Origin: Fragilariopsis cylindrus CCMP1102
Taxonomy: Eukaryota > Bacillariophyta > Bacillariophyceae > Bacillariales > Bacillariaceae
Reading direction: 5' to 3'
Length of the DNA: 64,000 bases
NCBI GenBank assembly: GCA_900095095.1
Contig: FMBT01000457.1
Coordinates: 1 to 64,000 of the forward strand
The notes under the pieces are model-generated. The model did not search any database, was not told the DNA's origin, and was given only the letters and a program-made list of their open reading frames with translations. Positions 8,695-11,821 of the stretch are shown here, piece after piece (positions within the stretch are counted from its first letter, which is position 1; each line of letters opens with the position of its first letter). The position numbers and the translations under genes are program-made.

Positions 8695-9466
8695 GACATA
8701 TAAATTGATTTCTTCCAATTGATACCTCCCAAGACAGTAATATTTTGTGGAGTACAGTACCAGGTGCTGTGTTTTGTCGTTTTGTCAAAACTTTTTGTGT
8801 CGATGAGTGAGCGCTTTTCGAGAGATTATTTTTGTGTCGTTTCAACGCGATTTTTTTAACCAGCGTTAATAGAGAGTGAAGTGCGCATAATTTTTCTCCT
8901 CGCGCGTACATTTTTTGATTTCGCAATCATTTTCCTCAAAAAGATAGATTACAGTAGTTGCAAGTTTATGACTTTATGGTGAAAAGGATAGTCGAACCTC
9001 CACTCGTACTGATCCGTTTGTTACAAGAGTGGTGTCAAATTGGCCCAGGGGAGGTGGTTTGCTGGAATTTGTTACTGGTAATTGCTGGTACAGCTAGCTC
9101 TTCTCAAAAGCTACCACTTTGCTCTCTGTTACAATAATAGCTCGTGCTGTGTGTTTTCAAGATGTCAACCTCGTTGCCCTTCACGGGTAGGACTGGACCC
9201 TGTCACCACAAATTCACTTCATAATGCATGTACAAGCAAAACCTTCCTCTTGCTATTGCACCGGGTTTATGCACTAATTCAACAAAGTGTCTGGAATGTA
9301 CAATTATTATAAATAACTAAAAATTAAATTTCAAAGTTTTGTAGACCACCATTGACAAAGAGTACGGCTCTATGATTTAATTCAACATTTCAGCATGTCC
9401 ACACAAGTAATGTCCTTGATACAGTCTTCCATTGTTTGGAATAAACTAAAGTAAAAAAAAATCAAA
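8695..9466. other. intergenic spacer upstream of LSM2
   Basis: This spacer lies between the LSM2 start and the terminator of the tRNA locus. It should hold the LSM2 promoter and 5' UTR. The short frames here (for example 9082-9312 and 8645-8926) show no family resemblance. Confidence 0.5.
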
Positions 9467-9467
9467 A
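9453..9467 (-). terminator. RNA polymerase III T-run after the permuted tRNA
   Basis: On the minus strand, TTTT (9467-9464) and a run of nine T (9461-9453) follow the 5' half by 15 to 30 nt. This is the expected Pol III stop and places both halves in one short transcript. Confidence 0.7.
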
Positions 9468-9471
9468 GATG

Positions 9472-9587
9472 GAGACTAGTTCATAAGACCCCCACTCTGA
9501 CCACTGAGTTACACGGGCGAAGAGGAAGATCACTCTTATGCTCGAGATGGGGTTTGAACCCACGACCAAGGGCTAACTTGCTGTCTC
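9472..9587 (-). tRNA. circularly permuted tRNA-Ile(UAU) gene
   Basis: Read on the minus strand, the 3' half comes first. At 9574-9539 lie nt 38, the 3' anticodon-stem strand (GCCCT), variable loop TGGTC, T-arm GTGGG-TTCAAAC-CCCAT, acceptor strand CTCGAGC and discriminator A. After a 20-nt spacer (9538-9519) comes the 5' half at 9518-9482: acceptor GCCCGTG, TA, D-arm ACTC-AGTGGTCA-GAGT, G26, anticodon-stem GGGGT, loop CTTATG with anticodon TAT. Joined between nt 37 and 38, this gives a 73-nt cloverleaf with a 7-nt anticodon loop. The anticodon stem pairs as three G-C plus two G-U. The acceptor stem has C3-A70 and T6-T67 mismatches; I recall T6-T67 also in yeast tRNA-Ile(UAU). Flanks pair (GAGAC 9587-9583 with GTCTC 9476-9472; AGTT with AACT), forming a relaxed bulge-helix-bulge around the junction. 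A degenerate tandem pair of tRNA fragments is the alternative. Confidence 0.75.
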
Positions 9588-9620
9588 GCATGCCATATCT
9601 CGGAAATTTTGGATATATAA
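9540..9620 (-). promoter_or_regulatory. Pol III control elements of the tRNA locus, B box and TATA-like
   Basis: A TATA-like stretch lies at about 9611-9620 (minus strand), some 25 nt upstream of the leader helix. The B-box-like GGTTCAAACCC is at about 9560-9550. The A-box-like TAACTCAGTGG is at 9511-9501, downstream of the B box, the reverse of a normal tRNA gene. Confidence 0.5.
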
Positions 9621-10396
9621 ACTGACTTTTAGTGAAATCGTTTTCTCGCGCAAAATTTTTAAGCCAGAAGGTAATAAACGCTAACTTAACCTTACTATAG
9701 AAAATACCAGATTTTTAACATACATCCTCTTGCCCTTACTCATATTAATATTTCGAAGGTAACAACCATATCATAAGATTAAAAAGACCTTCTGATGCGC
9801 TCTTGGTGGTAACATTCAGCAATCTATGTTCCATTTTTAATACTACTTTTTGATCGGACGGTATATTATAATACCTATCGCCGAAGCAACTTACTACGTA
9901 CATTGCGATAACTATCATTGTTGTTTTGCTATGTTCTGTTCTGTTTTGTTTGTACGAATTCTCTAAAATATAAAGTTAAATCGAAGAAATAAATTATTTA
10001 GTTATATATTTATCTTTCCTTCTTCTGTTTTATTTTATATTATTCTTTCATTCATCTATAAATATAAATTATATTTATTTTAGTGAGAAAATTACCGAGC
10101 CGGTTGGTGTTCCAAACTGTATACGTTTACAAGGAAGGAAGACGGTAACCTTCCTTCTCCCTACAACACCCTCCGCATTATAATTATTATAGTGTTATAG
10201 TTTTTATATCCATCCCAAGCATATACGATTCATTCGTTCGTTTGCAAAAACGAGAATGAAAATGAATGAATCATACATGTACTGTACTGTACTGCACTGC
10301 AAATAATAAGTGGTATTTCTTTTTCACTTTCATTCTCTTCACATTATTCAATACAGCACGTATTTCTTATTCATTTTCTTATCTTAAGGATTTAAT
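9621..10396. other. intergenic, AT-rich
   Basis: AT-rich spacer between the tRNA locus and the 3' end of SKP1. No frame with support was seen. It contains a degenerate CTGTA run near 10277-10300. Confidence 0.5.
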
Positions 10397-11269
10397 TTAT
10401 GAGTCTTCAAAGATCCATTTATGTTCCTCACGTGCTTGTGCTTCCTCTTCAGGTGATAATTCTGGTAGACGTAAAATTTCACGAATCTCCATCAGCAGAT
10501 TTGCCTGTTAATTGAAATGTAACCTTTAAGCAACATAAATCTAATAATTCTTTAATTCCCATAAAGTTAGCAGACGTCAATAAATCAAATAACATGTCAT
10601 TGCCACCTAAATTTTCATCGGAAATAAAATGTTGGTACCATTCTTGATCCATAACCTGGGGTGTGTAGTTACCAAGAGATTTAGAGAAAAGCCGGACGGA
10701 GGGAGAGAGAGTGGTGGAGAGTACGAATGAGGAAAGGAACAGTCGTGAGGTATTTAATTGTGGTTGTTGCTAAGATAATAAAAACAAGATAAAACCGGAA
10801 CGCGTTAAAAGTATCGTATCGATACAGTACAATACGGTACGGTACAATACAAAACGATACGATCGACGGTACGGTTCGGCGAGCGCACAAACAAACCAGC
10901 AAAAAAAAGACTTACCTCATTGAAGGAGGAACCACCTAATGGTGTTGGAATTGCTTTCATTTTATCTGTATGATGATGATTCATAAAATCAACAACTTTT
11001 GCCAGACATGGACCTTTGACACGAGAAATATTAATTTCTAATGGTGGTTTATTCCTAGCATTATCATCATCATCATCGTCATCATCATCATCATCTTCTA
11101 CATCACCAGCAGCATCCACAACTAAAACACTTAAACCAGCAGCTGCTAATGAAATTTCAAATACTTGAGATTCACCAGTACTGTCATCTTCTGCTGATAT
11201 AAGTTTAATCATTATATCATTATTTTCTGCTACAGCGTTTGAATTTGCGTTTGCGTCGTCGGTATCCAT
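10397..11269 (-). CDS. SKP1: SKP1-like SCF ubiquitin-ligase adaptor, with apparent +1 frameshift
   Basis: SKP1 links F-box proteins to cullin-1 in SCF ubiquitin ligases. Exon 1 (11269-10916) encodes a BTB/POZ-like start (IKLISAEDDSTGESQVFEIS) with an acidic Asp run replacing the usual loop, then ISRVKGPCLAKVVDFMNHH. The intron has a GTAAGT donor. Exon 2 (from 10655) encodes VMDQEWYQHFI, LFDLLTSANFMGIKELLDL and then the C-terminal helices that bind the F-box (REILRLPELSPEEEAQAREE, HKWIFEDS, stop at 10397). These two parts are one base out of register. In frame, the protein stops at TGA 10481-10479 after GKSADGDS. Removing one G at 10489/10490 gives GKSADEIREIL, matching the family GKTPEEIRKTF. 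Either an assembly insertion, a broken allele or a +1 recoding event explains this. Full length would be about 204 aa. Confidence 0.85.
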
Positions 11270-11283
11270 CTTGATATATTTCT

Positions 11284-11331
11284 ATTTTGTTTTTGTTTTG
11301 TTTTGTTTTGTTTTGTTTTGTTTTGTTTTGC
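11284..11331. repeat. TTTTG pentamer repeat in the SKP1 5' region
   Basis: About nine TTTTG units lie 15 bases upstream of the SKP1 start codon, so they are probably in its 5' UTR or promoter. Confidence 0.9.
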
Positions 11332-11821
11332 TTGGTGTTGATTTAAAATTATTGAATTCAATCGACGAGAAGATGTTCGGTTTGAATGTTTGAAAGTGTA
11401 ATGGAGTTGTTACGGTAACTTACCGGTAGCAGCAGTTTATTGATTTGGTAATTCTCCTCCTTTGACAATTTGAGACCAGTTTTCAGTGCGAAATAATTAA
11501 TAGCGTGGTCTGTGAAAAGTTAAAGGGCACGATTAAAATTGTGTCGCCACGATAGTACTGCAGTTGTATAGTTTCTCATCAGCATCCGATCTTATTGTAT
11601 ATATTTTTTATATTTTGATAATACTAGATGATGAACCACCTATCGTATTCAAGAAATATGATATATTCAGGAAAAAAACTGTATTGTTTTGAGAATTATG
11701 AACGGATAACATGCAGCAGGCCAATACTGCTTTGATTGCTGCTGCGCTGCGCTGGCTGACTGGGTAGACCTATTATCATTCCTCCTGTTGCTAGACACAA
11801 CAATATTATGTACGCGCACAT

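Follow-up and report, generated by a model that had tools for sequence, protein, structure and literature searches.

On its minus strand, the window (the whole stretch of 64,000 nucleotides analyzed here) carries the two halves of a tRNA in swapped order, which raises the question of whether they are a circularly permuted gene or the remains of a scrambled one. An earlier note, made from the sequence alone, had placed the 3′ half ahead of the 5′ half with a 20-nt spacer between them, and its coordinates proved exact, with 9574-9539 lying ahead of 9518-9482. It had also stated that joining the halves gives a 73-nt cloverleaf with a TAT anticodon and a junction at 37/38. In the joined sequence, TAT occupies positions 34 to 36 and the junction falls between G37 and A38. 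ARAGORN, run on the joined halves placed in arbitrary flanks, called the join tRNA-Ile(tat). The junction is ambiguous by one base (A), A9481 being identical to A9574. The observation of a permuted tRNA-Ile(UAU) in the window thus holds, and its parts are listed in the table below together with two further permuted genes found elsewhere in the genome.

Table. Components of the permuted tRNA-Ile(UAU) gene in the window, together with two permuted tRNA-Cys(GCA) genes from other contigs
Feature	Position	Strand	Basis
TATA-like element TATATATCCAAAA, 45 nt upstream of the 3′ half	9607..9619	-	motif scans
Leader, containing the 3′ cut site and one strand (leader side) of the bulge-helix-bulge-like fold	9575..9587	-	sequence; register read by hand
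3′ half, tRNA-Ile(UAU) positions 38-73 (3′ anticodon-stem strand, variable loop, T arm, 3′ acceptor strand, A73)	9539..9574	-	sequence; permuted-tRNA model; ARAGORN on join
Spacer between A73 and G1, 20 nt	9519..9538	-	sequence; alleles differ here by one base
5′ half, tRNA-Ile(UAU) positions 1-37 (5′ acceptor strand, D arm, 5′ anticodon-stem strand, TAT anticodon, G37)	9482..9518	-	sequence; ARAGORN; permuted-tRNA model
Trailer after the 5′ cut site	9472..9481	-	sequence
T-runs, presumed Pol III terminator (T4, 9467-9464; T9, 9461-9453)	9453..9467	-	sequence
Permuted tRNA-Cys(GCA)	L057 1483-1561 (contig C83)	-	pattern search; R1 62.2 bits
Permuted tRNA-Cys(GCA)	L062 1487-1564 (contig C595)	+	pattern search; R1 60.1 bits

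Type II permuted genes have the 3′ half upstream of the 5′ half on the same strand, separated by a short spacer, and this is the layout found here. The join folds as a cloverleaf with the conserved tRNA residues U8, A14, G15:C48, U33, T54T55C56 and A58, and 19 of its 21 pairs are standard. The two mismatches that remain, C3-A70 and U6-U67, do not figure in the earlier note; both are in the acceptor stem, which keeps 5/7 pairs. The cloverleaf is not the minimum-energy fold of the Ile sequence (-34.7, versus -29.9 when the cloverleaf is forced). As expected because the halves are swapped, neither ARAGORN nor Rfam at gathering thresholds reported an ordinary tRNA in the window, and RF00005 had no match at E ≤ 10 in 9300-9800.

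A permutation-aware tRNA search, which the earlier note had suggested, was performed with a covariance model (R1) made by rearranging 13 ordinary tRNAs of the same genome, with no tRNA-Cys and no tRNA-Ile(UAU) among them. In the window, R1 matched 9482-9574 of the minus strand at 54.3 bits (E = 2.3e-14), and its sole other match there scored 8.1 bits (E = 3.8). Chance origin of the Ile arrangement in the window is thereby excluded. As a control, R1 was run on 64 loci that included ordinary tRNAs as well as other DNA. Three of the 110 matches were permuted genes, namely the two tRNA-Cys genes described below and a second Ile copy on contig C438 (62.2, 60.1, and 53.5 bits); the best of the others, at 35.6 bits, was a partial tandem duplication of tRNA-Asn. 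Ordinary Asp-Gly tandems scored 24.0 bits. Among the 13 tRNAs, Ile-AAU was closest to both halves of the Ile gene, by narrow margins: 27/38 aligned columns for the 5′ half (next, 26/38) and 27/36 for the 3′ half (next, 26/37). The 5′ half of yeast tRNA-Ile(UAU), taken from a published Northern probe (PMC10945473), agrees with the window gene at 29/38 positions; this likeness is not specific, because the Ile-AAU tRNA of this genome matches the yeast half equally well (29/38).

We scanned the genome for a B box followed by an A box within 15 to 45 nt and obtained seven matches, against four for a reversed-pattern control. They comprised the two Ile alleles, two ordinary Asp-Gly tandems, a site on contig C462, and two permuted tRNA-Cys(GCA) genes. 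The C462 site was rejected, as ARAGORN found no tRNA and the permuted model no match. When the genome was scanned with a second pattern that allowed a longer D loop, the search yielded nothing beyond a mitochondrial Met-Val tandem. The two permuted tRNA types are a lower bound, as the two patterns covered particular forms of the B and A boxes, at most 45 nt apart, and junctions in the anticodon loop. In viral contigs, exact-pattern scans gave no relatives of the permuted genes.

Both Cys genes have all 21 cloverleaf pairs, including 7/7 in the acceptor stem, a GCA anticodon and U73, and in both a T-run directly follows the trailer. With its cloverleaf forced, the C83 precursor lies 1.0 kcal/mol above the minimum and shows a leader-trailer helix. 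When the surroundings of the two genes were compared over 3 kb, and likewise over 10 kb, only 98 bp were shared, corresponding to the transcription unit. Within it, the spacers (7 and 6 nt) have diverged, and 4 of the 72 mature positions differ. These four changes form two compensatory acceptor pairs: G-C to C-G at 1-72 and U-A to A-U at 4-69. A fraction of 3.65e-5 of random four-change sets keeps all pairs with two double changes. Two double changes in the acceptor stem, with no other change in the mature sequence and with diverged spacers, point to selection on the folded Cys product, i.e., to pairing that selection has maintained. Because the Cys paralogues carry these compensatory pairs, the evidence that permuted tRNA genes exist in this genome is strong. 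The reading of the window locus as a permuted tRNA-Ile(UAU) gene draws support from its model score, its T-run and the position of its TATA-like element, but above all from the two permuted tRNA-Cys genes.

The Ile gene has a TATA-like element upstream and a T stretch downstream. For comparison, we scanned without restriction the 120 nt upstream of 39 ordinary nuclear tRNA genes, a set from which 10 short or near-duplicate genes had been dropped and organelle loci left out. The best TATA-like site fell between -52 and -38 in 19/39 genes, and it exceeded the 95% level of random sequence in 23/39. In the same kind of scan, the four permuted genes had their best sites at -47, -45, -48, and -46 from the 3′ half, with scores reached by 21% (the window Ile gene), 66%, 4%, and 36% of random 120-mers. 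When starts were restricted to -62 to -27, the sites lay at -45, -45, -48, and -45, a median that proves little because the range is itself centered near -45; random sequences reached these scores in 4.5%, 11%, 17%, and 3.5% of cases, the 4.5% for the window Ile gene referring to random 80-mers of the window over the fixed range. A first, cruder motif search had picked up nothing but A-rich sequence and had not set the permuted genes apart. The position of the putative element thus agrees with that of ordinary genes, and its strength, given the modest scores, proves little. The presence of a common TATA-like element in about half of the 39 genes suggests that tRNA transcription by Pol III is promoted from upstream in this genome.

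The earlier note had described flanks that pair over 5 bp and 4 bp around the junction, resembling a bulge-helix-bulge motif. The complementary segments, GAGAC/GTCTC and AGTT/AACT, are present in the sequence, but the motif they would form is noncanonical; the 4-bp helix would bury both cut sites. GAGAC in the leader (9587-9583) pairs with GTCTC in the trailer (9476-9472) as an off-register outer helix. Read by hand in the canonical register, the Ile precursor has three of four central pairs, 32:-3, 33:-4, and 34:-5, which place G-3, A-4, and A-5 of the leader opposite C32, U33, and U34. The Cys leaders likewise form three of four central pairs by hand, with positions 33, 34, and 35, and have a U:U mismatch at 32:-3. 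Their in-register outer leader-trailer pairs, also read by hand, number 5/5 in C83 and 4/5 in C595.

A DNA search of the 67.9-Mb assembly identified one further copy of the Ile gene, on contig C438. Because about 20 kb of surroundings are collinear, in blocks 84 to 98% identical with unaligned gaps between them, we regard this copy as an allele rather than an independent gene. It is identical to the window over the 73 mature nucleotides, the near leader and the near trailer, and across 9472-9587 the single difference is one base of the spacer. Downstream, the C438 allele keeps TTTT, and the longer T run is shifted. The neighboring 3.8 kb are 94.5% identical, with 109 mismatches in 3,794 aligned columns. 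By our estimate, the 96 nt of the Ile unit outside the spacer should have gathered about three changes at the local substitution rate, and the chance of none is about 6%; allelic identity is therefore a weak, only suggestive sign of constraint. An allelic inversion of about 1.9 kb also distinguishes the contigs (window 9697-11547), with a breakpoint some 50 to 120 nt upstream of the Ile 3′ half.

Whether the genome has a normal tRNA-Ile(UAU) was a point that the earlier note had asked to be checked. Within the limits of the BLAST and pattern searches, none was found, and a BLAST search with the join returned only halves of the permuted copies. Genome-wide patterns that required a B box no more than 44 or 45 nt after CTTATAA or CTTATA gave 0 and 1 matches, in searches that would miss longer introns and unusual B boxes, and BLAST missed the Ile-AAU genes too. 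The lone CTTATA match, on contig C108, was discarded as an ordinary tRNA-Ile(UAU), as ARAGORN found no tRNA there. For tRNA-Cys, BLAST with the joined sequence returned only the two permuted genes, which as a BLAST-only search is a weak test of the presence of an ordinary gene. The set of ordinary tRNAs is incomplete, as the RF00005 genome search scored 63 of 2,708 candidates.

Three other explanations of the Ile locus were weighed against these data. It could be functionless tandem tRNA debris, in which a 3′ half was left beside the 5′ half of the next copy after duplication and decay. The two acceptor mismatches are compatible with this, and the genome does contain a truncated tRNA-Asn about 118 bp upstream of an intact copy (L019/L020 1537-1741, minus strand) that the permuted model scores at 35.6 bits. 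The Ile gene, however, reaches 54.3 bits and is kept as a unit in both alleles. There are no outer halves near it, since BLAST over the whole window and locus L002 returned the two gene copies and otherwise only matches with E ≥ 0.63; moreover, the Cys genes, on other contigs, keep 21/21 pairs with compensatory changes. We therefore consider debris highly improbable. Still harder to credit is that the locus encodes no tRNA but a Y-RNA-like (YrlA) RNA imitating one with swapped arms. The YrlA model (RF02553) aligned to the window gene over its full length, with the T arm ahead of the D arm, but its scores of 22.2 bits there and of 29.2 and 24.9 bits for the Cys genes are all far below the gathering score of 69. 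The 7-position acceptor stems, the anticodons and the discriminator bases also fit tRNA-Ile and tRNA-Cys. All Rfam families searched against 9300-9800 at E ≤ 10 gave only this weak YrlA match and two families at chance level. A genome search with the YrlA model found nothing at E ≤ 10 but carries little weight, having scored 46 of 815 candidates and missed the known permuted genes.

The alternative with the most in its favor, which we nevertheless judge unlikely, is that the Cys genes are functional and the Ile(UAU) gene is a decaying or dispensable relic, AUA being decoded by tRNA-Ile(AAU) read as IAU. tRNAs that read ANN codons normally have A37, and the Ile copy has G37 in addition to C3-A70 and U6-U67. 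Four tRNA-Ile(AAT) loci were seen, two of which may be alleles, and AUA accounts for 12 of the 125 Ile codons in the CNOT1 ORF, so that AUA could alternatively be read by tRNA-Ile(IAU). Against a relic, the 73 mature nucleotides are unchanged between alleles whose neighboring 3.8 kb are only 94.5% identical, and no other Ile(UAU) gene was found within the limits of the searches. U6 is moreover shared with yeast tRNA-Ile(UAU), where U67 is its partner. G37, C3-A70, and U6-U67 make function less certain for the Ile gene than for the Cys genes, and the Ile gene may be the less active. On balance, we consider it very probable that the locus is a nuclear tRNA-Ile(UAU) gene, circularly permuted (type II, 37/38), whose transcript would be processed via a circle, and that its host is a photosynthetic alga, probably an ochrophyte.

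For such a permuted gene, Pol III would initiate downstream of the TATA-like element near -45 and terminate in the T-run, so that the transcript would begin with the leader and run through the 3′ half, the 20-nt spacer and the 5′ half into the trailer. Leader and trailer would together play the part of a split intron, folding onto the anticodon loop. Cuts by the tRNA-splicing endonuclease on both sides at 37/38 would be followed by ligation into a circular pre-tRNA, from which RNase P and tRNase Z would excise the spacer, with CCA added afterward. Cutting, ligation to a circle, and opening by RNase P and tRNase Z are the established pathway for permuted tRNAs as described in PMC3978253. We infer transcription, circle formation and charging of the permuted tRNAs in this genome. 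Ordinary tRNA splicing is suggested here because a tRNA-Ser(GCT) has a short intron in its anticodon loop (L050 571-674, plus strand, contig C62). For the splicing endonuclease, PF01974 gave one match, an exon at C665:23901-24023 (locus L068) with 34.7 bits. The reading frame after that exon (L068 1755-2096) seems, by eye, to hold the catalytic lysine motif.

The earlier note had listed permuted genes from red algae, green algae, a nucleomorph and an archaeon. Table 1 of PMC3978253 holds 34 genes, 11 from Cyanidioschyzon merolae, 19 from four green algae, two from a nucleomorph and two from an archaeon, with no Ile and no stramenopile entry, and Cys(GCA) at 37/38 in three of the four greens. 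The C. merolae genes (Soma 2007) resemble the present ones in having the 3′ half before the 5′ half with spacers of 7 to 74 nt (20 nt here), a TATA-like element within 50 bp upstream, a T-run downstream, and a 37/38 junction in 6/11 (PMC3978253). They belong to another lineage, however, and the permuted set given there lacks Ile; tRNA-Ile(UAU) of C. merolae is instead broken by three introns (PMC9602550). In Ostreococcus and Micromonas (Maruyama 2010), the junction is at 37/38 in 18/19 genes, and a permuted Cys(GCA) is tabulated for O. lucimarinus, O. tauri, and M. pusilla, where this genome has one too; these are green algae, and Ile is absent from their list (PMC3978253). Chlorarachniophyte nucleomorphs, which are green-derived relict nuclei, are described as having permuted tRNA-Ser only (PMC4494063), and the Bigelowiella natans junction is also at 37/38 (PMC3978253). 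Thermofilum pendens follows the same general principle but is an archaeon with a junction at 59/60 (PMC3978253). Auxenochlorella (PMC12633428) and another nucleomorph (PMC4494063) are further green-lineage cases. The novelty claimed for stramenopiles stands as far as the literature searched and Table 1 of PMC3978253 extend, as no stramenopile report was found there. Genes of this kind are established; what appears new within the literature searched is their occurrence in this lineage, a permuted Ile(UAU), and the evidence from the Cys pair.

As to the host, the window contains ordinary eukaryotic genes, e.g., CNOT1. Contig C419 looks mitochondrial, with cob, cox3, and nad genes named by eye except for cytochrome b, which was assigned from the domains of its relatives. 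Among the 120 best matches listed for that cytochrome b, the only two that carry a species name are both from diatoms, at 70 and 72% identity, and the closest matches reach up to 97%. There are 104 matches to light-harvesting proteins in the genome. The two examined resemble FCP, ACP, and VCP chains among others, the best matches being long LHCI chains of entry 9vfj. We take the FCP, ACP, and VCP names to denote algae of the chlorophyll a/c type. Judged from these sequences, the host is likely a photosynthetic stramenopile.

Two different permuted tRNAs in a secondary alga of probable red lineage would extend the known distribution of the arrangement, and such a case would argue for repeated origin or transfer. 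In the compensatory acceptor changes of the Cys genes, selection on a scrambled gene can be seen directly. ARAGORN, and Rfam at gathering thresholds, reported no tRNA for any of the four permuted copies; the case would thus show that standard tRNA annotation can miss important genes. It is possible, if slightly the less probable outcome, that the host is a stramenopile relying on permuted genes, via circular RNA, as its only source of tRNA-Cys(GCA) and of a tRNA-Ile with a UAU anticodon, that these either were acquired from a green alga or arose independently of red and green algae, with convergence on a 37/38 junction in Cys(GCA), and that permuted units have spread, perhaps through RNA. That permuted genes can spread as units is suggested by the Cys copies, because they are alike only across a transcript-sized unit.

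A published model derives permuted genes from an intron-bearing gene by duplication and loss (PMC3978253). Yeast tRNA-Ile(UAU) has its intron after position 37, which fits such an origin; the published probe runs past position 37 and detects both precursor and mature tRNA (PMC10945473). In the partial tandem duplication of tRNA-Asn at L019/L020, an upstream repeat is common to both copies, and the arrangement may represent debris or an intermediate toward permuted genes.
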